DNA of 53,246 bases, from NCBI GenBank assembly GCA_905478555.1, contig CAJQIZ010000009.1, forward strand, positions 1-53,246, written 5' to 3'. Under the pieces are notes generated by a model. It did not search any database. It was given only the letters and a program-made list of their open reading frames with translations, and had not been told where the DNA came from. Of this stretch, positions 1 to 13,245 are shown in pieces (position 1 is the stretch's first letter; each line of letters begins with the position of its first letter). Both the position numbers and the translations under genes were made by a program. This stretch comes from an uncultured Flavobacteriales bacterium. Lineage in GTDB: Bacteria; Bacteroidota; Bacteroidia; Flavobacteriales; BACL11.

Positions 1-3000
1 CATCATAGTTAGTTGCTGTTGAATCTGTACATCCTAAGATAGGACCACAAGCAGCACCTCCTACTGAAATACTAGTATAAGTACCAGTTCCAGCTCCAAC
101 TAAAGAAGCAAAGTTAAATGAAACTTCAGAAGGGAATGAACCACCTCCTACAGTTACATCATAACAACCAGCAACTAAACATAAAGTATCAGTACCAAAG
201 TATCCTGAAGCAAGACCTCCTGAAGCAACAGAAACACCACCTATAGAAACATCATAAGTATTACCGTTCCATCCATCACCATAAGAATCAAACATCTCAA
301 AAGTAACTTCATTGTCTAAACAAGGGTATTGACAAGAACCGTCATCAATAGTAGCCGTTGCATCATAATTCCAAGCAGTAGAGTCAGTACAACCATACAC
401 TTGAGAACCATCAACAAACGACATTGCATCAATAGCAATATCAGAATAGTATGTTGTACCAGTAGTTCCTGTAATTTTTACAGTTACACCTGTAGCAGCA
501 TAAGCAGAAACATCAATATTAGCCTGAGCCCAGTCAACACCTTGGTCACCTGAAACAGTCCAAGTAGAATCCCAAGTAGCACCACCATCAGAAGATAATT
601 CAACATTTAATGATCCCATTCCACTCCCGTACATATTGTACCAGAATTTCAAGCTAGCATTAGATAATGTAGATAAATCGAAACAATGAGATGTCATAGA
701 AACATTATTGTTATAGTTACCAGAAGCTTCTATGTACATATAGTAGTCACCTTCCATTGCATAACCATTACCACCGTAATTAGTAGAGTAATTTGGTCCT
801 GTAAGAGAAGATCCTGTACCTAAGTTATCATGTAACCAATTACCATAAGTACCATGTCCACCAATATTGTCATCAGTGTTCTGTATCCAGTCAGCTGGAG
901 TTAGAGCAACTTGAGCAATACCATCTTCAAATCCTGTAGCGTATCCAGTTGCAACATGACAAGGATATACACAAGAACCATCAGAAGCAGTAGCAGCTGG
1001 GTTATAGTTAGTAGCTAACACGTCCATACAACCATAGATAGCACTTACAATGCTGATATTATCAACATAAGAGTTATCACCACTAGCATAGTAATCATCA
1101 GTATATTTACCAACTGATTGGAAATCAATATCTATTGAAGTACCTGCATAAGCAGATAAATCATAAGTATGATTCACCCAAGGATCTAAACCAGAGGTAG
1201 TAGGACTATAGTAATCCATACCAGCAGTTGAAGTTAATACAGTAGAATCAGATTTAACTCTGAACCAAGAGTAAGTAGCATTAAAAGAGTATTCTTGTCT
1301 TAAATCGAAACTCATTGCAACTGTAGAACCTGGAGCAAATGAAGTTAAGTCAACACAAATAGAACCTGTCGCAACATGCGTTACACTCATAAATGCATCA
1401 GGACCTGTTCCGTAAGGGAATAAGTAACCAGCAGATGTTCCCCCTTGACCATGCCAAGTATATTGATTAGTTGCTGTAACATTATTGTTACTATCAATAG
1501 AAGAACCTGCATTACCACCTGTATACATAGTTAAGTAAGCACTTGAACCTGTTTCGAAATCTTCACTAAATGGATATACAGTAGCACACATTGCATATGC
1601 ACAACTTAAATCATCCGTATTAGCTGTAGCATCATAGTTAGTTGCTAAAGGATCCGTACAACCGTAAATGTAACAACCTAAAGCAGGAGAACTTAATGAA
1701 GCAGAACCAGAAAGACCACTAGCTAAAGTAGCTGTAGTAGATACACCAGACATAGATTCAGTAATAGAGAATACGTTTCCGTTCCAACCATCACCCCAAG
1801 AGTCAATCATGTCGATAGTATAACAACCAACCGCTAAACAAGTATCTAAGTTAAATGGAGCACCACCAGATAATACAGTTAAACCAGAAGCATCTAATAA
1901 ATTCCAAGAAACTTCAGATTGGTAAGAACCTCCATCACAATTGATATTTACATACGCATAACCAGCACCACAAGTAATACAAGAACCGTCATCAGTATTT
2001 GCAACAGAACTATAATTAGAAGCTAATGAGTCAGTACATCCATAAACAGGAGCAACAGCAGCTATAATGTTAATATTATCAACAAAAGCATTATCACCTC
2101 CTTGGTAGTAGTCATCATTATACTTACAAGCAGATTCAAAGACAATAGTAGCTTGAGTTCCTGCAAGAGCAGTTAAATCTAAAGTTATATTGCTCCATGC
2201 ATCAGAATCCGGAGTAGTTGGCTGGAAGTATTGTGATCCAGTATTATCAGAAAGAACATTAGTTCCATCAGTTACTCTAAACCAAGAATAAGTAGGATTA
2301 AACGAATATGTTTGTCTTAAATCAAACGTCATCATTACACCTTGTCCCGCATAAGCAGTAAGATCTATACATAATGAACCAGAAGCAACATGCGATGGTG
2401 AGTATGTAAATGCGTCAGGACCGGTAGAGTAAGGTACATTCCAACCAGTAAATAAACCACCTTGACCATGCCAAGAGAAAGTTCCATTATTAGTACTATC
2501 TACAGAAGATAAAGATTCACCAGTTGATGCACTCCAAGTTAAAGTCATATCATTAGCAATACCAGTTGAGAAGTCCTCAGTGTAAGGCAAAGCAGATCCA
2601 CAACCAGGATAGATACATGATGTACTATCGTTAACATTTATATTTGCATCATAGTTAATTGCAGCCATGTCCATACATCCAACATAAGCACAAGAATCAG
2701 CTAATACAGCTAAAGAGTCATAATTGTTTGCTAAAGGATCCATACAACCTGTAGCACAAACAGTAGTTGCACCTAAAGTAATGTTTCCAGAGAATGGTGC
2801 ACCACCAGATAATATAATATTACCAGCAGCATCCACTAAATCCCAAGAAACTTCAGATTGATAAGAACCATAATCAACAATAATATTATAACAACCATCA
2901 ATAACACAGAAAGATTCAGAACCAGCTGAACCACCTGTTAAAGTTGCAGCAGCAACAGTAGAACCTAAAATAACATCTGACATTATGAAAGAGTTACCGT

Positions 3001-6000
3001 TCCAACCATCACCCCAAGAGTCATACATGTTTAATGTAAGTAAGTTATCACTACAGAAGATACAAGCAGTACTATCACTGATAGTTGCTGTAGCATCATA
3101 ATTTGTAGCTAAAACATCCATACAACCAATAATACAAGTAGAGTTTACTCCGAATATATCAGAAGCAGAAGAACCAGTAGCAATAGTAGCTCCAGAAAGT
3201 AAAGTGTCTCCATTAGAATTTTGAATCATAATGTTTCCTGAACCAAAGCCCCATCCGTCACCCCACGAATCTTGCATGTCGATAGTAAAACAACCATCAT
3301 TAACACAAGCAGTAGTAACATAAGTAGCAGTACCAGTAGCGTAAGGTACAGAAGCAGCAACTGTATCTCCATTAGAATTTAAAATTTGCCAAGAAGTTTC
3401 GTCAGCATAGAAATCAGAATTATAAGTAATAGTAATTTCATCATCATAACCATAATAGTTACAAGAATAAGTACAAGAACCATCATCTAAATTAGAAGAT
3501 GCATCATAATTAGAGGCTAAAGTATCAGTACAACCAGGATAAGTACAAGAAGAATCACTAGTATTTGCAGCTGGATCAAAGTTAGACGCTAAAGTATCTA
3601 AACAACCAGGTACAGCAAGAGCCATAACAAATCCATTCCAAGTAGAAATACAACCATTACAGTCAGTAATTGTACAAGCAATTGGTCCCATTCCTAATCC
3701 AGAAACATCTTGAGTAGTAGCACCATTAGACCACGCATAAGTATAAGACGCAGTACCATAGTTTACATTACCAGCAAAGTCTCTAGCTCCATTAGGAGGA
3801 CCAAAAACTGAACCACTAAATGCAACATAAGTACCTAAACCAGCTCCATTAGAGATAGCAAGGTTAGCATCAGAAGAAATAATCGTAGTATAAGCAGCAG
3901 CGTTACCTGAAGTATATTGCATACCATTAGAACAAATAACATAAATACCAATAGTATCACCAGCAGTAGCTGAAATACTTACAGGAACATTTACTAAACC
4001 AGCAACATTTAACATAGTAGCTTGATTAGCAGCAAGTGTCCAAGCAGAAGCATCTAATTCCAATCCTTCACCAGAACCATTTCTATAGTATACATCAACA
4101 TCACCAAGACCAGCTTGACAGAATAAATCTAAAGAAGATATACCTAAGTCAGCAGAAGCAATAATATTAAATACATTTCCTCCATAAGAGTTGTTAGGTG
4201 CAGCACCTGAAACAGTATTAGCCCCAGAATAACAAGGAGTACCATTACCAACAGTTAAATCAACAGCACCATCCGTAGCAAGAGGAGAAGTAGCGTTTAA
4301 AATAACAGCAGAAGTTACAAGAGCAGATGGCTCACCAACCACTGCAGTAGCAGTAGCTATACAACCATTTAATGTATCAGTAGTAGTACAAGTATAAGTA
4401 CCAGCAGATAAACCAGTAGCAGTAGCAGTAGTTTGTCCGTCAGACCATAAATAAGTATCATAAGTAGCATTCGGAGAACTTACTGAAGCAGTAGCTGTTC
4501 CGTCTGTACCAGCATTACAAGATGCATCAGTAGCAGTAGCAGAAGCAGTATAGTAAGTACAAGGAAAAACACTAAATACATTAATGTTATCTATTCTTAC
4601 ATAATCAGCAACAAGAGCATTATATGCTGGACCATACTTAACAGCAGCCTCAAATATAATATACACTTGAGATTGTTGTGCATAAGCAGATAAATCATAA
4701 GTTAAAGTACTAAGACCTGATAAAGTTTGATTATTATAAGAAGTATTACCATTAACATCAGCAAAACCATTAACATCACCAGCAATTCTTATTCTAAACC
4801 ATCCATAAGCAGAAGTATAGTATGAAACTAGTTCAGCATCTAAAGTCATATTAACAGTAGGAGCAGAAACACTCATGTCAATACAAATAGTAGATGACGC
4901 TAAGTGATCAGTATTTGCAAATGCACCAGCTTCTGTAGTCGAATTAATCCAACCAGTAAAAGAATTACCAGTAAACTCAAGCGATACAGTATCTGCAATA
5001 GCGTTAGCAGAAGTTAATGCAACAGATGCTTCAGCGCCAGATAAAGTAGTCCACCCATTCCCAGAAAGGTTAGCTGCTTCAAAATCATCAGAAAAATCTA
5101 TTGTGTTACAAACTGGATAAACACAAGAAGTGCTATCGTTAACATTACAAGAAGCACAGTAATTAACTGCTAAAGGATCTAAACAACCAGGGAACAGACA
5201 AGTACCATCATCAAATACCGCTAATGGGTCATAGTTTGATGCGAATAAGTCTGTACAACCTGCTAGACAAGTAGAGTTTAAATTAAGGTTTTGACTACCA
5301 GGAGCACCACCGGATGTTACAACTGCACCAGAAGTGTCAGTTAAAGTCCAAGATACTTCAGCTTGCCATGAACCTCCATCACATGAAAGAGTATAACATC
5401 CATCAGGGATACAAAAAGATTCTGTTCCTGTAGAACCTGAAAGAAGTGTTCCCGAAGCAACAACATTTCCAGATAAGTCATACATGTTCCATACATTTCC
5501 GTTCCAACCATCACCATAAGAATCAGTCATGTTTAAAGTTAATGCGTTACCCGCACAACCATAAGTACATGATCCGTCATTAAAGGCAGCAGTAGGATCG
5601 TAGTTAGTTGCAGTAGAATCTGTACAACCAGAAATACATGTAGCGTTGATTGAAGTTAAATCAACACCTAGACTTCCAGTAATAAGACCTCCTGAACCAT
5701 AGATAGTTCCCAATGAGTCAATAATTTGGTAAGTACCACCGTTCCAACCATCACCCCAAGAGTCATATAACTCCATGCTGTAACAGCCGTCAGTAACATC
5801 TACCCAATAATCAACAGGTACTCCAGTTAAAGAGTAGTAACCAGCAGAAGTAGAGGCTAGAGCAGTACCAGAAGCGTCATTCAATGACCAACTGATTTCT
5901 CCAGCATACGAACCTGCAGTTACTTGGACATTTACCCAAGTTGCAGATACTGTCGACACACTAAGTGCGATAGTAGCAACAAAAGCAAACATCATTTTAC

Positions 6001-6016
6001 TAAATTTGTTTTTCAT
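1..6016 (-). CDS. Giant secreted mosaic repeat protein, 3' end beyond the window
   Basis: This open frame of about 2005 codons starts at the ATG at 6016-6014 and is still open at base 1, so the C-terminus is missing. The N-terminus (MKNKFSKMMFAFVATIALSV) is a signal peptide. The rest is a mosaic. It has about 13 Cys motifs of the form GC(T/L/M)D-x-x-A-x-NYD followed by DDGSC (for example near 5610, 5240, 3520, 3110, 2740, 2030, 1650, 1030, 390 and 30). Six modules contain (W/Y)GDGW (5760, 5510, 3265, 3010, 1790, 275). Four MAM/cleaved-adhesin-like jelly-roll domains lie at about 5115-4570, 2600-2050, 1590-1050 and 960-420. Two SprB-type repeats occur near 4540-4340 and 4310-3640, the second with an inserted domain. 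No enzyme motif was seen. It is probably a surface or matrix protein exported by the T9SS whose core genes lie at 28-34 kb; the sorting tail would lie outside the window. The frame was read by hand from the minus strand and spot-checked for stops. Confidence 0.85.
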   Translation of the reverse strand, partial: MKNKFSKMMFAFVATIALSVSTVSATWVNVQVTAGSYAGEISWSLNDASGTALASTSAGYYSLTGVPVDYWVDVTDGCYSMELYDSWGDGWNGGTYQIIDSLGTIYGSGGLITGSLGVDLTSINATCISGCTDSTATNYDPTAAFNDGSCTYGCAGNALTLNMTDSYGDGWNGNVWNMYDLSGNVVASGTLLSGSTGTESFCIPDGCYTLSCDGGSWQAEVSWTLTDTSGAVVTSGGAPGSQNLNLNSTCLAGCTDLFASNYDPLAVFDDGTCLFPGCLDPLAVNYCASCNVNDSTSCVYPVCNTIDFSDDFEAANLSGNGWTTLSGAEASVALTSANAIADTVSLEFTGNSFTGWINSTTEAGAFANTDHLASSTICIDMSVSAPTVNMTLDAELVSYYTSAYGWFRIRIAGDVNGFADVNGNTSYNNQTLSGLSTLTYDLSAYAQQSQVYIIFEAAVKYGPAYNALVADYVRIDNINVFSVFPCTYYTASATATDASCNAGTDGTATASVSSPNATYDTYLWSDGQTTATATGLSAGTYTCTTTDTLNGCIATATAVVGEPSALVTSAVILNATSPLATDGAVDLTVGNGTPCYSGANTVSGAAPNNSYGGNVFNIIASADLGISSLDLFCQAGLGDVDVYYRNGSGEGLELDASAWTLAANQATMLNVAGLVNVPVSISATAGDTIGIYVICSNGMQYTSGNAAAYTTIISSDANLAISNGAGLGTYVAFSGSVFGPPNGARDFAGNVNYGTASYTYAWSNGATTQDVSGLGMGPIACTITDCNGCISTWNGFVMALAVPGCLDTLASNFDPAANTSDSSCTYPGCTDTLASNYDASSNLDDGSCTYSCNYYGYDDEITITYNSDFYADETSWQILNSNGDTVAASVPYATGTATYVTTACVNDGCFTIDMQDSWGDGWGFGSGNIMIQNSNGDTLLSGATIATGSSASDIFGVNSTCIIGCMDVLATNYDATATISDSTACIFCSDNLLTLNMYDSWGDGWNGNSFIMSDVILGSTVAAATLTGGSAGSESFCVIDGCYNIIVDYGSYQSEVSWDLVDAAGNIILSGGAPFSGNITLGATTVCATGCMDPLANNYDSLAVLADSCAYVGCMDMAAINYDANINVNDSTSCIYPGCGSALPYTEDFSTGIANDMTLTWSASTGESLSSVDSTNNGTFSWHGQGGLFTGWNVPYSTGPDAFTYSPSHVASGSLCIDLTAYAGQGVMMTFDLRQTYSFNPTYSWFRVTDGTNVLSDNTGSQYFQPTTPDSDAWSNITLDLTALAGTQATIVFESACKYNDDYYQGGDNAFVDNINIIAAVAPVYGCTDSLASNYSSVANTDDGSCITCGAGYAYVNINCDGGSYQSEVSWNLLDASGLTVLSGGAPFNLDTCLAVGCYTIDMIDSWGDGWNGNVFSITESMSGVSTTATLASGLSGSASLSSPALGCYIYGCTDPLATNYDATANTDDLSCAYAMCATVYPFSEDFETGSSAYLTMYTGGNAGSSIDSNNNVTATNQYTWHGQGGTSAGYLFPYGTGPDAFMSVTHVATGSICVDLTSFAPGSTVAMSFDLRQEYSFNATYSWFRVKSDSTVLTSTAGMDYYSPTTSGLDPWVNHTYDLSAYAGTSIDIDFQSVGKYTDDYYASGDNSYVDNISIVSAIYGCMDVLATNYNPAATASDGSCVYPCHVATGYATGFEDGIAQVALTPADWIQNTDDNIGGHGTYGNWLHDNLGTGSSLTGPNYSTNYGGNGYAMEGDYYMYIEASGNYNNNVSMTSHCFDLSTLSNASLKFWYNMYGSGMGSLNVELSSDGGATWDSTWTVSGDQGVDWAQANIDVSAYAATGVTVKITGTTGTTYYSDIAIDAMSFVDGSQVYGCTDSTAWNYDATATIDDGSCQYPCLDNEVTFEMFDSYGDGWNGNTYDVSIGGVSVASGGLASGYFGTDTLCLVAGCYDVTVGGGSFPSEVSFNFASLVGAGTGTYTSISVGGAACGPILGCTDSTATNYD

Positions 6017-6054
6017 AATACGTGTTTTAGTTAATAAAAAGGTTAATTATATAT

Positions 6055-6085
6055 AAAAAAACCCTTGCGCTGGGACGCAAAGGTT
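6055..6085 (-). terminator. Terminator-like hairpin in the leader of the giant gene
   Basis: Read on the minus strand, AACCTTTGCG (6085-6076), loop TCCCAG and CGCAAGGGTT (6069-6060) form a 10-bp stem with one G-U pair. A U tract follows (6061-6055). The hairpin ends only about 40 bases before the ATG at 6016, on the same strand. No gene ends just upstream of it, so it is not the terminator of a preceding gene. Its place between promoter region and start codon is that of an attenuator. What controls it is unknown. Confidence 0.6.
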
Positions 6086-6141
6086 GTCTTACCGTAGTTA
6101 TATATGTAGCGTCTGCAGATGTGTAACATCTGTAATTTACA
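6086..6141 (-). promoter_or_regulatory. Structured leader upstream of the attenuator-like hairpin
   Basis: On the minus strand this contains a 7-bp hairpin, CAGATGT / TAC loop / ACATCTG (6132-6116), next to TGTAAATTACA (6141-6131). GACGC at 6113-6109 is complementary to GCGTC at 6078-6074, which includes the inner end of the terminator's 5' arm. The two pairings are therefore mutually exclusive, as in an antiterminator. I do not recognise a named riboswitch class. A role as a regulated leader RNA is inferred from layout only. Confidence 0.4.
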
Positions 6142-6461
6142 TCACTCCATACCTGATAATTGTAAATATTTACCATATCGTTTTTTAAATTGTTAAAAAT
6201 CAGATTCCAAATTTAAGAAAAATATTCGAGACAGAGAGTTGAAAAGGTGAAAAAATCTGATTTATTAACATTCTGTTTTTAATAAGTGTCTATCTTAAGG
6301 AAGAACCTCAGAAATTTAAACGAACAGAAATGAATTAGGTTACAGAACTAAGGAAATATATTTATTGAATAATAATTCTTTTAAATTGAGAAGTATTAAA
6401 AGATTTTAACTCTACCATATAAACAAATTAAAAAAATGAGAAAGATTGAAATGATGTAAAG
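6142..6461. other. AT-rich spacer between divergent giant genes
   Basis: About 320 bases with no credible open frame and no repeat that I could recognise. The minus-strand promoter of the left giant gene should lie here, probably near 6160-6220, but I find no clean TAnnTTTG match at a sensible distance. Confidence 0.5.
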
Positions 6462-6588
6462 AATTATAGTTAGTTGCTGTAGAATCTGTACATCTTAATG
6501 CACCATAACAAGAACCATCATCCACATTAGCTGTAGTATTATAATTACATGATAAAGGATCAGTACATCATAAAATAGGATAAATACA
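6462..6588 (-). pseudogene. Decayed fragment of the GCTD..NYD / DDGSC repeat module
   Basis: Read on the minus strand from 6588, the frame gives CIYPIL, a TGA stop where the intact module has GGA (Gly), CTDPLSCNYN, VDDGSCYGALR and CTDSTATNYN. This is the same repeat found about 13 times in the giant gene at 1-6016. At DNA level, 31 of 33 bases from 6466 match bases 5-37 at the window's left edge. There is no start codon, and the frame closes on both sides. It is a remnant of a longer or duplicated repeat array, stranded upstream of the present gene. Confidence 0.7.
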
Positions 6589-6637: not shown

Positions 6638-6645
6638 TATATTTG
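6638..6645 (+). promoter_or_regulatory. Bacteroidota -7 element for the SprB-like gene
   Basis: TATATTTG fits the TAnnTTTG -7 consensus. The expected -33 position (about 6614) has only TTAG, a weak match. Transcription would begin near 6652 and leave a leader of about 24 bases before the ATG at 6676. This supports the ATG over the in-frame TTG at 6643, which lies inside this element. Confidence 0.5.
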
Positions 6646-6675
6646 CAGATTATACGAAATAACAAAAAAACGGAT

Positions 6676-9600
6676 ATGAAAAAAACATTACTATTAATAA
6701 CTTTTATTCTCAGCACTTTAATTGGATTTGCACAACATCCTATTAACTTAACATCATCAAACATAACATCATCTTCATCAGAATTAAGCTGGACTGATAA
6801 TGGATGTTCAACATCTTATAAATTAAGATACAGAGAGCAGGGTGGTTCATGGATACCTTCTAATTCAGGACAAACAAATGTTACATCTCCAACTACAATA
6901 GATACTTTAAATCCTAATACAATATATGAATGGAGCGTTAAATGCTCTGGAACATCTGGATGGTCAGCAAACGAAATCTTCACTACTAATATAGGATGTT
7001 CAATAATATCTACATCATCTATAATAAATTCATCATGTACAGGACTAATGAATGGAGAGATAGATTTAACTGTCACCAATGGATCTACACCATACACTTA
7101 TTTGTGGAGTAACGGTACAATAACTGAAGATTTAATCGGAGTAAGTGACGGAGATTATATTGTAACTATTACAGATAATTCTGGATGTATACTAATAGAT
7201 ACTATTACAGTAGGAATTGATGGAGGAGTCTCTATATCACAATCAATTACAGGATTTAATCCTAATCCATTAACCTCCTACCAAAGTTGGTCATACGACA
7301 CATTAAACATTACCAATACTGGATGTTCTGTCAGATTACGACCTGATTTTGTGATTTCATGTAATTCTGGATCAATACAACAAGGAGATTTTGTTTTAAG
7401 ATATAACTCGTTTGGAGCTAATTGGCCTATAATACCCTACAGTATTAATGCAAATGGAGATGCTTATGGATTTTGGAATCTCACTACAAATGATTCTACT
7501 GGAACAAATATCGCTTATGGTCAAATTCAGGACATAATAATTAGAGTTAAATTTGTAAACCCTGCAATACTAGGAACCTACACCGCTACTTGGACAACTA
7601 ATGAAGTAGACAATCTGGGTAATGTAATCTCCCAATTAGACGTTCCTACTATTTCTTCACTATATTTAGTCAATTGTTCTACTTTCTCTATTGACAGTAC
7701 AACAACTACATCAACTACTTGTTTAGGAGGTTCAGACGGAACAGCAAATATCAACACTATATTAAATGGATCTGGACAGTACAGTTATTCCTGGAACAAT
7801 GGAACAACAAGTCAAAATATTACAAATGTATCAGCTGGAACATATACATGTATAGTAACAGACAACAACTGGGGATGTACAGATTCTGTCACTATTACTG
7901 TCCCATCAGCTGATAGTTTACAATCTTTTTTAACTGGAACTCAAATAAGTTGTAATGGATTGAGTGATGGAACACTAACAGGTTCTGCATCAGGAGGCTC
8001 AGGAAACTACAAATTTATTTGGTCCCCTTCATTACCATTTATCCCTACACACACAGCACTAGCATCAAATACTTATACTTTAACAATAGATGACTTAGGA
8101 TGTCCGGGGAGTTATTCATCAGTCAGTTACATGATAAACGAACCAGATCCTCTTCAAGAATCTACAATATATTCAGATAATTCATCATGTGATAGTACTA
8201 ACTGTAATGGAAGTATTAATATTTCTATTTCTGGTGGAACAACACCTTATAGTATTATTTGGAATAATGGAGATAGTGCTGTAAATAAAAGTAATTTATG
8301 TGCAGACACTTACATTATCACCATTACTGGGGATAATAACTGCTCTACTTTTACAGAAACAATTACAATTTCTGATAGTGCCTCCACGCCAAATATAGCT
8401 ATTTCTTACACTAATATTGTATGTAACGGAGATGCAAATGGTTCTGCAGAAGTACAGATTGTTTCAGGATCTGGAGGAACTGGAAATATAGCTTCTAATA
8501 ACTATTGCGCATCTACAGTTGGAGAATCATTTTATACAAATATTGAACTTGTAAAACTAGCAGGAGATAACAGTACAATAAACAATTCTACTGCTGGTAT
8601 TTGCGATACTTATGACGACTTTACTTCTTTATCTTCTGACTTAACCCCAGGACAAAATTACACAGTACATTACAATATTAATGATTGTAATAACATTGGA
8701 GCTACTGCTGGAACAAAGATATTTATTGATTGGAATATTGATGGAGATTTTGATGATGCAGGGGAGGAAATTGGAAGCACTTCCTTAACAGCCGCTCCTT
8801 ATTCTGACAGTATAACTTTTATAGTACCTAATATTGGATTTTTTGGAGCTACAAAAATGAGAGTTGTCTCTCAATATAATGATGATGATTTTGGAGCTTG
8901 TGAAGTAGGAACTTACGCTCCCACTTATATACAACCATGGTTCGGAGCTACGGAAGATTATACCGTTATAATTAATGGTACAGTACCAGCAACATATCTT
9001 TGGAATACTGGATCTACTAATAATTCTATATCCAATCTTTCTGGAGGGAACTATTATTGTACAGTTACAGATACAAATAACTGTACCGTTTCAGACACCA
9101 TTACCATTACAGAACCATCTGTAATTTCTCCTACAGAAAGTATTACAAATGTAAATTGTAACGGAGGAAATGATGCTACAGTTACTTTATCTATTTCTGG
9201 AGGAACTGCTGGATACATTACTGATTGGGGAATAAACAACCCAACAGCACTTTCTGTAGGAACTTACAATTATACTATTACAGATACAAACGCTTGTAAC
9301 TACACAGATTCTGTTATCATCACCGAACCAGATGTACTAAGTATCAGTTCTTCTATTACAGATATACTTTGTTATGGAGATTCAACAGGAAATATTAATA
9401 TTACTATTTCAGGAGGAACTATTAATTACACCTATTCTTGGAGTAACGGAAGTACGAATGAAGATTTAACAAATGCGATAGCAGGAACCTACTACTTATC
9501 TGTAACGGATTTAAATTCATGCGTTCTATTAGATACATTTATTATTAGTGAACCTTCTATAATATCGGTTAACTCTACAACAACAGACGCTTCTTGTTTC

Positions 9601-12600
9601 TCTTATTCTGACGGGAACGTTACACTTTCAATTTCTGGAGGAACCTCAGGATATTCTACCGATTGGGGAACAAATAATCCAACAGCACTTTCTGCAGGAA
9701 CTTACAACTACATTATTACAGATACAAACGCTTGTACATTTATAAACTCTGTAACTATTAACCAACCTAATACTATTACTACTATTGCTACAACAACAAA
9801 TGTAAGTTGTAACGGATCTTCAGATGGAACTGCTTCTATATCTATATCTGGAGGAACTGCAGGATACATTACTGATTGGGGAACAAATAACCCAACAGCA
9901 CTTTCCGTTGGAACATATAACTATACCATTACAGATACAAATGCTTGTAACTACACGGATTCCGTTATCATAACTGAACCATTAGTATTATCCGCTACAT
10001 ACACACAAACAAATGTGACTTGTAATGGACTAGCAGATGGATCTGCATTTGTAAATATCGCAGGAGGAACAACAGATTATATTCTTTCTTGGGATACATT
10101 AACCTATCCTTTACCATTTGGTTTGTCAGTATTTAACACTCCTGTTGGAGTACCTACTGGTACTTATCCTTTTGGAGTAACAGATGTTAACGGATGTTAT
10201 TTTACAGATACAATAACAATAATAGAACCTAACCCAATTTCGGTTTCAGAACTAATTACTAATGTAAGTTGTAATGGAGGAAATGACGCTACAGTTACCT
10301 TATCTATTTCTGGGGGTACTTTAGGATACACTACAGATTGGGGAACAAACAACCCACAAGCACTTTCGACAGGAACTTACAACTACACTATTACAGATAC
10401 AAACTCGTGTACATATAACAATTCAGTTACAGTAACAGAGCCATTAACTTTAACTTCCTCCATCTCTGCTACAGATCTATCTACTTGTTTAATTTCAAAT
10501 GGCGCTATTAATTTATCCGTAAATGGTGGAATATCTCCATATAGTTACCTTTGGAATAACTCAGATACTACTGAGGATTTAACAAATCTTTCAGCTGGTA
10601 ACTACTCTGTAATAATTTCAGATATGAATGGATGTTCTGACAGCAATAACATACTAGTAAATCAACCTTCTAACGGATTATCTATATCGTTAAATGCTAA
10701 TACAATTAACGGTTATGAAATATCATGTTATGGAGGGAATAATGGTAACATCATCACTAACACATCTGGAGGAGTAGGTAACCTAACTTTTGTATGGAAT
10801 AGTGGAGACACTACTCAGAATATCTCTAACTTAACTGCAGGAAATTACTCCGTAACAATCACTGATTCAGTAGGATGTTCATTATCTGACAATATCACTC
10901 TAACAGAACCTTATGCAATTTCATCAGTCTATAGTACAACACCTGTCCTTTGTAATGGAGATAGTACTGGATCTGCAATAGTAAACTTTAGTGGTGGTGT
11001 TACAAACTATATTCTGAATTGGTCTGGATTTACTTACCCTTTACCAAATGGATTAACTACATTTATTACTCCAGTAGGTGTTCCCTCGGGAACATACCCT
11101 TACTCGATAATAGACGCAAACGGATGTATGTTATACGATACAATTACTATAACAGAACCTAACCAAATCAGCTCTACCTACACATCATCTAATTATAATG
11201 GATTTGAGGTTTCATGTAATGGAGGTACAGACGCTTCTATTAATTTTTCTTGGAATGGAGGGGTAACTCCTTATTCAAATTGGTTTAATAATATTTCAAC
11301 AACTGATTCCATTCAAAATAATTTAACCGCTAATACTTATACGGATTCTATTATAGATGCTAATGGATGTACTTTCAGTCAATCTATAACTTTAACAGAG
11401 CCTACTGCACTTTCATTAAGTTTAAATTCTACAGATAATAGTTGCTACAATTCTTGTGATGGAACTATTAGTTCACAAATTTCAGGTGGAGTCGCTACTT
11501 ATTCTTATCAATGGAACAATGGAGCTAATACTGATAGTATCTTTAACTTATGTGCAGGAAATTACAATGTAGTGCTTACGGATGCAAACGGGTGTACTAT
11601 TCTGGATAGTACTACCATATCCGAACCTAATCAAATTACAATTACTACAGATTCTATTACAGAAGTAAGTGTTTATGATGGAAATGATGGAGAGATATAT
11701 ATCTCTACTAATGGAGGATTTGGAAACTATTTATACATTTGGAATGGACCTACAGGATACAACTCCACTTCAGAAGATATAAATAATCTATATTTTGGAA
11801 ATTACCTTATTACAGTTACTGACTCTACAAATTGTAGTAATTCGGATTCAATTTTTGTTAACCAACCTCCATCCCTATCTATTTCTATAGATACAATAAT
11901 TAATCTTTCATGTTATGAAGAATGTAATGGGCAAATAAACATTACAGCTGATGGTGGAGATTCTACTTATAGCTACATATGGATAGGTCCTAATGGATTC
12001 ACATCAACTGAGGAAGATATAGATAGTTTATGTGCGGGTACTTACGAGCTAATAGTTTCAGACACAACTAGTTCAATAAATACTACTATAACTATTTTAC
12101 AACCTACACAATTACAAATTATTACAATCACAGATACTGCTCTTTGTTTTGGAGGAGCAGCATCAGCTACAGCTTACACTTACGGAGGGCAATATCCGTA
12201 TATAACAAATTGGGATAACGGATCTAATTCTATAACTACTTATTTAAATGCAGGAATGCATTATGTGAATATAATGGACAATAACGGATGTTCAGTATCT
12301 GATTCTGTTTTCATTATTGAGAATGACTCTATCAGTGTTACAACATCAAGTACTAATATTAGTTGTTACGGACTTACTGATGGTAGCGTTCAAGTTAATA
12401 TTATCTCAGGAGGTGTTTCTCCTTACACTTATTCTGATAATAACGGTATTAACTTCCAAAACAGTAATATTTTCACTAACCTTTCAGTAGGGACTTACAA
12501 TTATATCCTTATGGATAATAATGGATGTATAACTTCCACAACAGAATCCATAAACGAACCATTAGAACTCTCATTTACGATATCAGCTACTTCTGTAAGT

Positions 12601-13245
12601 TGTAATGGAGAATGTGACGCAACAGCTATAACCAACATTACAGGAGGAACAACACCTTATTATGCAGATTGGGGAGGATTAGATGAAAATGCACTTTGTG
12701 CAGGATTAACTACAGTAATAGTAGAAGATAGTAATTCTTGTTTAGCTATCAACTCTGTTATTATAAATGAACCCAACCCAGTTATTGTAGTAATTACCGC
12801 TAATGGAATGACATTAAACGCAACTTCTGGATTTTTATCCTACCAGTGGATAGATGAAAATGGTGACAATATTTTAGGGGCTACATACGAAACCTACACT
12901 CCAACTACTGCAGGACAATATGCTGTAAATGTTACCACAAATAATGGATGTTTAGGAACCTCTATTTATATTCAATTTATTATTGAATCTGTGGGAGATA
13001 TAAATTCTATTCTTTCTGTTTATCCAAATCCAACAAATTCTTGGATAACAATTGAAACAAAAGAAATAGTGGAAAACAATATAAAGATTTACAATACTTT
13101 TGGAGAAATAGTAAACATTATTCCTTCTGAAAACTTCAATGACTATTCAGAAAGAGTAGATTTATCCTCTTTATCTAAGGGAATTTACATTATACAACTT
13201 ATTAACAATAACACTATTATTAACTACAGAATCATTTTGCAATAA
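6676..13245 (+). CDS. SprB-like giant adhesin with T9SS type A sorting tail
   Basis: A 2189-residue secreted protein. The chosen start is the ATG at 6676, which gives the signal peptide MKKTLLLITFILSTLIGFAQ; the in-frame TTG at 6643 overlaps the promoter. Order of domains: fibronectin-III-like (about 27-108), a first SprB repeat, an unassigned beta-rich domain (about 195-335), then some 20 further SprB repeats. Each SprB repeat runs roughly from (S/T)CNGxxDG through SGGTxxYxxxW to (A/V)GTYxxxxTDxNxC and ends in a TEP motif. A GEVED-like domain (about 603-766, ending ATEDYTVII) sits inside one repeat. An Ig-like segment follows, then the tail (about 2110-2189: VYPNPT, SLSKGIYIIQL) that directs T9SS export. 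In Flavobacterium johnsoniae SprB is the mobile gliding adhesin; this protein is smaller, and its role in gliding is inferred. Likely partners are the PorP and Gld proteins at 28-34 kb. Confidence 0.9.
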   Translation: MKKTLLLITFILSTLIGFAQHPINLTSSNITSSSSELSWTDNGCSTSYKLRYREQGGSWIPSNSGQTNVTSPTTIDTLNPNTIYEWSVKCSGTSGWSANEIFTTNIGCSIISTSSIINSSCTGLMNGEIDLTVTNGSTPYTYLWSNGTITEDLIGVSDGDYIVTITDNSGCILIDTITVGIDGGVSISQSITGFNPNPLTSYQSWSYDTLNITNTGCSVRLRPDFVISCNSGSIQQGDFVLRYNSFGANWPIIPYSINANGDAYGFWNLTTNDSTGTNIAYGQIQDIIIRVKFVNPAILGTYTATWTTNEVDNLGNVISQLDVPTISSLYLVNCSTFSIDSTTTTSTTCLGGSDGTANINTILNGSGQYSYSWNNGTTSQNITNVSAGTYTCIVTDNNWGCTDSVTITVPSADSLQSFLTGTQISCNGLSDGTLTGSASGGSGNYKFIWSPSLPFIPTHTALASNTYTLTIDDLGCPGSYSSVSYMINEPDPLQESTIYSDNSSCDSTNCNGSINISISGGTTPYSIIWNNGDSAVNKSNLCADTYIITITGDNNCSTFTETITISDSASTPNIAISYTNIVCNGDANGSAEVQIVSGSGGTGNIASNNYCASTVGESFYTNIELVKLAGDNSTINNSTAGICDTYDDFTSLSSDLTPGQNYTVHYNINDCNNIGATAGTKIFIDWNIDGDFDDAGEEIGSTSLTAAPYSDSITFIVPNIGFFGATKMRVVSQYNDDDFGACEVGTYAPTYIQPWFGATEDYTVIINGTVPATYLWNTGSTNNSISNLSGGNYYCTVTDTNNCTVSDTITITEPSVISPTESITNVNCNGGNDATVTLSISGGTAGYITDWGINNPTALSVGTYNYTITDTNACNYTDSVIITEPDVLSISSSITDILCYGDSTGNINITISGGTINYTYSWSNGSTNEDLTNAIAGTYYLSVTDLNSCVLLDTFIISEPSIISVNSTTTDASCFSYSDGNVTLSISGGTSGYSTDWGTNNPTALSAGTYNYIITDTNACTFINSVTINQPNTITTIATTTNVSCNGSSDGTASISISGGTAGYITDWGTNNPTALSVGTYNYTITDTNACNYTDSVIITEPLVLSATYTQTNVTCNGLADGSAFVNIAGGTTDYILSWDTLTYPLPFGLSVFNTPVGVPTGTYPFGVTDVNGCYFTDTITIIEPNPISVSELITNVSCNGGNDATVTLSISGGTLGYTTDWGTNNPQALSTGTYNYTITDTNSCTYNNSVTVTEPLTLTSSISATDLSTCLISNGAINLSVNGGISPYSYLWNNSDTTEDLTNLSAGNYSVIISDMNGCSDSNNILVNQPSNGLSISLNANTINGYEISCYGGNNGNIITNTSGGVGNLTFVWNSGDTTQNISNLTAGNYSVTITDSVGCSLSDNITLTEPYAISSVYSTTPVLCNGDSTGSAIVNFSGGVTNYILNWSGFTYPLPNGLTTFITPVGVPSGTYPYSIIDANGCMLYDTITITEPNQISSTYTSSNYNGFEVSCNGGTDASINFSWNGGVTPYSNWFNNISTTDSIQNNLTANTYTDSIIDANGCTFSQSITLTEPTALSLSLNSTDNSCYNSCDGTISSQISGGVATYSYQWNNGANTDSIFNLCAGNYNVVLTDANGCTILDSTTISEPNQITITTDSITEVSVYDGNDGEIYISTNGGFGNYLYIWNGPTGYNSTSEDINNLYFGNYLITVTDSTNCSNSDSIFVNQPPSLSISIDTIINLSCYEECNGQINITADGGDSTYSYIWIGPNGFTSTEEDIDSLCAGTYELIVSDTTSSINTTITILQPTQLQIITITDTALCFGGAASATAYTYGGQYPYITNWDNGSNSITTYLNAGMHYVNIMDNNGCSVSDSVFIIENDSISVTTSSTNISCYGLTDGSVQVNIISGGVSPYTYSDNNGINFQNSNIFTNLSVGTYNYILMDNNGCITSTTESINEPLELSFTISATSVSCNGECDATAITNITGGTTPYYADWGGLDENALCAGLTTVIVEDSNSCLAINSVIINEPNPVIVVITANGMTLNATSGFLSYQWIDENGDNILGATYETYTPTTAGQYAVNVTTNNGCLGTSIYIQFIIESVGDINSILSVYPNPTNSWITIETKEIVENNIKIYNTFGEIVNIIPSENFNDYSERVDLSSLSKGIYIIQLINNNTIINYRIILQ

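Follow-up and report, generated by a model that had tools for sequence, protein, structure and literature searches.

The window, by which we mean the whole stretch of 53,246 nucleotides analysed here, derives from an uncultured, probably marine bacterium of the order Flavobacteriales. At its beginning lies a minus-strand gene for a giant Cys-rich surface protein, preceded by a 184-nt leader whose fold (-36 kcal/mol) is more stable than those of shuffled sequences (z -2.96). The features of this leader, together with the gene itself, are listed below in the 5′ to 3′ order of the minus strand.

6262-6270, minus strand: upstream motif TGTTAATAA, found 93-104 nt before the leader ORF in 11/24 relatives
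6208-6215, minus strand: predicted promoter -7 box, TAAATTTG, matching the Bacteroidota sigmaA consensus TAnnTTTG
6027-6176, minus strand: leader ORF of 49 codons (MVNIYNYQVWSDVNYRCYTSADATYITTVRQPLRPSARVFLYIINLFIN and stop), which passes through the terminator and stops 10 nt short of the giant gene
6116-6132, minus strand: upstream hairpin, CAGATGT-TAC-ACATCTG, which includes Cys codon 17 (6128-6126)
6053-6092, minus strand: extended hairpin, in which GUAA (6092-6089) pairs with UUAU (6056-6053) and encloses the terminator stem
6060-6085, minus strand: terminator stem-loop, AACCTTTGCG-TCCCAG-CGCAAGGGTT, 11 pairs by the scanner
6055-6061, minus strand: U tract of the terminator, seven T
6017-6054, minus strand: conserved spacer, ATATATAATTAACCTTTTTATTAACTAAAACACGTATT, which holds the ORF stop TAA (6029-6027) and is free of a TAnnTTTG box
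2-6016, minus strand: gene of the giant Cys-rich surface protein, truncated at the contig end

The hairpin and its T run, which end 38 nt ahead of the giant gene's ATG at 6016, were the core of the original prediction, and the coordinates given there (6085-6055) agree with those of the scanner. A single terminator-like match is nevertheless weak evidence, because chance would supply about one such site in the 3 kb scanned (three were found on both strands, against 1.0 +/- 1.0 expected). It is conservation that lifts the leader above the chance level, since 24 further leaders lie at an equal distance from the gene start. Compensatory covariation, the absence of which had been named beforehand as refuting the prediction, is strong in these homologous leaders. 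Specifically, 92.7% of the cells of the stem and its GUAA/UUAC extension are paired in the 24-sequence alignment (A2), with double changes at nine of the 12 terminator pairs; the double-changed cells number 32, as against 9.7 +/- 2.8 in shuffles, and fall to 0-5 when the partner strand is slid as a control. For the extension helix the paired fraction is 93.7%, with GC/AU/GU and UA/UG/CG exchanges, and the out-of-sample leader L056 has a wholly different stem (GCTATTATT/AATAATAGC) with full pairing. Judged by these alignments, the predicted terminator is conserved and covarying. Five T after the stem are invariant across the 24 leaders, but many relatives have a U tract of only these five, and termination may therefore be partial.

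The same prediction held that no gene ends just upstream of the hairpin, which is correct for long genes but misses the 49-codon leader ORF that overlaps the terminator. Its ATG, found in 24/24 leaders, lies 141-167 nt ahead of that of the giant, and a stretch of 34 codons is free of stops in its frame in 23/24 relatives (counting L020 from its second ATG, as the orthologous start gives 8 codons only), whereas the other two frames over the same stretch contain stops in 24/24 and 23/24. Among 11 close pairs (leaving out L031, whose ORF has a stop), 264 substitutions gave rise to no stop in the ORF frame; when the substitutions were relocated, stops appeared in 7.2 of the 11 pairs on average, with a minimum of two across 500 trials. 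Most gaps within the ORF have lengths divisible by three; where this is not so (the window's clade and L024), a second indel restores the frame. The peptide sequences have diverged among relatives, dN/dS is about 1 and changes are spread evenly over the three codon positions; these last two findings indicate that it is the openness of the frame that is selected, and not the peptide. The ORF stop lies beyond the U tract in 20/24 leaders and inside the hairpin in three, while that of L031 precedes the hairpin by 17 nt. Roughly half of the relatives have an ORF that ends, as it does in the window, 10 nt ahead of the giant's ATG, a gap that would suit reinitiation. All of the leader features are present in L056. 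Since the conserved feature is thus a translated-looking ORF that passes through the terminator, control by the ribosome is indicated.

The predicted promoter lies upstream of all this. Its -7 box fits the flavobacterial -7 box and the Bacteroidota sigmaA consensus TAnnTTTG (PMC9723704), and transcription is expected to start near 6202, which would leave the leader ORF a predicted 5′ UTR of about 27 nt. Of the 24 leaders, 20 have a TAnnTTT[GA] box 39-49 nt ahead of the ORF, and a recognisable box is missing in three g2 leaders. The motif TGTTAATAA, which precedes the -7 box by about 55 nt and keeps a nearly fixed distance from the ORF, is possibly an activator site. No TAnnTTTG box was found between the terminator and the giant gene, so that the sole recognisable promoter box stands upstream of the terminator.

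Given that the ORF has a promoter box, a conserved open frame and a terminator to itself, it could be argued that it is a small-protein gene in its own right and that the giant is transcribed independently. However, with the stop beyond the terminator in 20/24 leaders, the terminated RNA would be a non-stop mRNA, which argues against an ordinary small-protein gene; the diverged peptides with their dN/dS of about 1 and the missing promoter box between terminator and giant tell against it as well, and this explanation is highly improbable. The hairpin may alternatively be an mRNA stabiliser or a ribosome stand-by structure, the leader ORF serving only to bring ribosomes for reinitiation at the giant's ATG. 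The covarying extension of the stem through the U tract would be in keeping with such a role, as would the 10-nt distance between ORF stop and ATG in about half of the relatives, but five invariant T right after the stem are what termination requires, reinitiation needs no hairpin within the ORF, and the ORF of 4/24 leaders does not extend beyond the hairpin. This role is therefore considered improbable.

The second hairpin, at 6132-6116 on the minus strand, is present as originally described, and most relatives can form a hairpin at its place (mean z -1.85), which recurs with changing sequence. In the commonest register 66% of the cells are paired, against 38-44% when slid, and double changes occur at 6/6 pairs. 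As the register differs between clades, the case for this hairpin is weaker than that for the terminator, and only its position and a partial covariation are claimed here; a possible function is that of an RNA polymerase pausing hairpin. The pairing originally proposed as an antiterminator, GACGC at 6113-6109 with GCGTC at 6078-6074, is indeed complementary, but it is restricted to the window and in the alignments is absent from L023 and L027, which belong to the same genus. An unbiased scan of column pairs in the alignment detected no conserved competing helix. A long-range helix between the 5′ ACGACAAAAA and GTCGT/TCGTCG before the terminator, seen in several single-sequence folds, is not claimed here, its register shifting between relatives. 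In L021, L024, L033, L037, L040 and others, the segment just ahead of the ORF has a near-invariant 5′ end, TTTACGACAAAAA, which is not seen in the window's own clade and may pair with the GTCGT/TCGTCG before the terminator.

These results bear directly on the possibility of a riboswitch or protein-controlled attenuator, in which a ligand or a protein would select between the terminator and an RNA antiterminator, and the ORF would be incidental. The structured leader, the covarying terminator and the upstream helix are all features that such a switch might have, yet the proposed antiterminator is not conserved even within the genus and nothing conserved takes its place. A search of the window with Rfam 15 returned no family above the gathering score, and at permissive thresholds the best matches (E 1.5-2.9) were far under the cut-offs and nothing credible. 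The frame open in 23/24 relatives would also be left unexplained, and such a switch is accordingly quite improbable. Of the original prediction, the attenuator in the 5′ leader is supported by a conserved, covarying terminator behind the predicted promoter, whereas the RNA antiterminator and riboswitch readings are not supported.

The leader was found in many of 40 relatives by DNA search, and a covariance model built from the terminator and spacer (R1) gave 24 sites in 23/52 genomes of one Flavobacteriales family, with no site outside this family among 395 genomes of the order (about 350 other genomes). A second model comprising the ORF and terminator (R2) matched 24 genomes strongly, besides weak matches, and added a genus, G009 (L056), that had not been used in building; together the two models cover 25/52 genomes of the family and 11/15 genera. 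Viral contigs gave no match. The window's own genome contains one strong R1 site only; three further, weak sites in it (L017-L019, E 0.1-0.3) are situated where other genes end and resemble ordinary terminators, and the weakest R2 matches (L074 and L075, E 0.03-0.09) proved on inspection not to be leaders. The leader always stands ahead of a gene for a secreted protein, mostly a giant one. In the leader-less genomes of the family no match to the giant's signal peptide was found, matches beginning at residue 22 or later; since the signal peptide match is missing too, these genomes provide no instance of the gene lacking its leader.

Relatives of the giant protein comprise 2600-2980 aa, some of them still cut, and have a Cys content of 3.9-4.5% (the giants as a whole, 3.5-4.5%). 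The copy at L077 is complete; it carries a MAM domain and has a T9SS type A sorting domain at its end. Behind one and the same leader stand at least two unrelated signal peptides, MKNKFSKMMFA... and MKTNxxKxNPKKxLGYLMAFAMVFF..., the two sets being L025, L026, L028, L030, L031, L034 and L037 versus L016 and L020-L023, which suggests that the 5′ part of the giant gene has been exchanged. A tandem paralogue in G006 (L078, about 8400-8900, minus strand) has an identical start region and signal peptide and retains the 40 nt immediately ahead of the ATG, is without leader ORF or terminator and has its own TATTTTTG box. Without the whole leader as it is, this paralogue indicates that the gene can run without one. 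Two further features lie nearby. At 6441-6570 the intergenic region holds, on the giant's strand (minus), a remnant of a GCTD...DGSC repeat (CTDPLSCNYNTTANVDDGSCYGALRCTDSTATNYNSLHHFNL), probably a scrap from recombination or duplication of the mosaic gene, and a divergent gene of 2200 aa at 6643-13245 (plus strand) encodes repeated modules, a T9SS sorting domain and 2.8% Cys; a similar large divergent gene occupies the equivalent place in L077 and L080.

Codon usage in the leader ORF offers a possible hint at the signal, namely the supply of Cys-tRNA. Cys accounts for 6.9% of leader codons, as compared to 0.8% in 17 ordinary genes of the window and 2.3-3.0% in the other frames of the leaders, so that the enrichment is frame-specific, and the 46 Cys codons observed exceed the 27.6 +/- 4.6 of stop-free base shuffles (maximum 40 in 200 shuffles). 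At least one Cys precedes the hairpin in each of the 24 leaders (L056 has three), Cys at codon 20 is kept via both TGT and TGC, and the amino-acid bias of the leader tracks that of the giant, itself Cys-rich (r 0.61, reached by 2/500 shuffles). A Cys-specific attenuator could be envisaged on this basis, in which the Cys codons (with those for Trp and Tyr) would gauge whether charged tRNA is at hand for the giant; a ribosome held up at Cys codons around 13-20 would remain upstream of the terminator, which would fold and switch off the gene. Against this, codons 17-20 double as the upstream hairpin, and TGY triplets could be dictated by its pairing, and Gln, Asn and Tyr are enriched in the leader ORFs to a similar or greater degree. 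The dN/dS of about 1 gives no sign of constraint at the level of residues, and in the window the terminator is preceded by a single Cys codon of the leader ORF. The choice of tests was post hoc, with the data already in view. Because of the hairpin overlap, the other enriched residues and the post hoc tests, Cys sensing is regarded as rather unlikely. A broader version would be a demand-matching checkpoint, in which the leader ORF samples the giant's scarce residues (Cys above all, also Trp and Tyr) and transcription continues only when the tRNAs for them are charged. We consider it speculative and unlikely; if true, it would reverse the usual logic of amino-acid attenuators and amount to a feed-forward test of supply for a luxury protein.

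Taken together, the conserved terminator, the ORF that is open through it and the promoter-like box upstream make it probable, as far as sequence can tell, that the leader is a translation-coupled transcription attenuator built like that of E. coli pyrBI. Transcription would start near 6202 and a ribosome would begin the leader ORF at 6176, while the upstream hairpin at 6132-6116 would probably pause RNA polymerase and allow the ribosome to catch up. A ribosome following closely would then enter the terminator region within the ORF and block the hairpin, so that RNA polymerase could read into the giant gene; having ended at the TAA 10 nt ahead of the giant's ATG, the ribosome may reinitiate. 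Were translation weak, or stalled upstream, the terminator would fold and transcription would stop near 6055. The peptide itself would not be the product, and the signal that we infer is translation capacity, possibly Cys-tRNA charging. In E. coli, ribosomes repress terminators within about 27 nt of a stop codon; the same paper cautions that a terminator less than 100 bp into a coding region will often evade the ribosome if no pause couples the two processes (PMC4824070). That an early stop would save energy in the case of so costly a protein, as originally proposed, is plausible. If the pyrBI-like reading is true, (i) cells would check their translation capacity, and perhaps their Cys supply, before making a protein of 2000-3000 residues, (ii) a known attenuation plan would now be placed ahead of one of the costliest proteins in small-genome, probably marine Flavobacteriales of at least 11 genera and (iii) the leader would constitute a defined, unlisted RNA element with testable logic. 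As a caution, giant surface genes in uncultured bacteria carry unannotated upstream ORFs.

The classical settings of leader-ORF attenuation are nucleotide or amino-acid synthesis and drug resistance, and to our knowledge few leader-peptide systems have been characterized in Bacteroidota. With the attenuators of amino-acid biosynthesis (trp, his and the leader peptides of Bacteroidota, for instance those ahead of amino-acid operons in Flavobacterium psychrophilum; PMC9723704) the present leader shares a short ORF, a terminator and, possibly, regulatory codons. However, in those attenuators it is stalling of the ribosome that promotes an antiterminator and so switches the operon on, and the terminators lie more than 20 bp beyond the ORF (PMC4824070), whereas here stalling would turn the gene off and an antiterminator was not found. 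The uORFC-8-2 motif of the cysS leader combines a uORF, in which conserved Cys codons (14-15) lie within a hairpin, with a terminator further on (PMC8632094), and thus resembles the present leader in having Cys codons in a hairpin of the uORF with the terminator after it; it differs in controlling cysteinyl-tRNA synthetase, in that stalling is thought to cause read-through and in that its terminator is, by its description, outside the ORF. The closest likeness is to pyrBI of E. coli, where a terminator lies within a 135-bp leader ORF (pyrL) and a close-following ribosome permits read-through (PMC4824070, PMC10135430): the leader ORF is of similar length (150 bp here) and likewise contains the intrinsic terminator. 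The two differ in that the sequences are unrelated and from different phyla, and that nothing points to UTP as the signal in the window, where the run ahead of the terminator is not U-rich (a U-rich run precedes the terminator in most relatives). The leader described here, unlike that of pyrBI, has a conserved upstream hairpin and would control a giant secreted surface protein.
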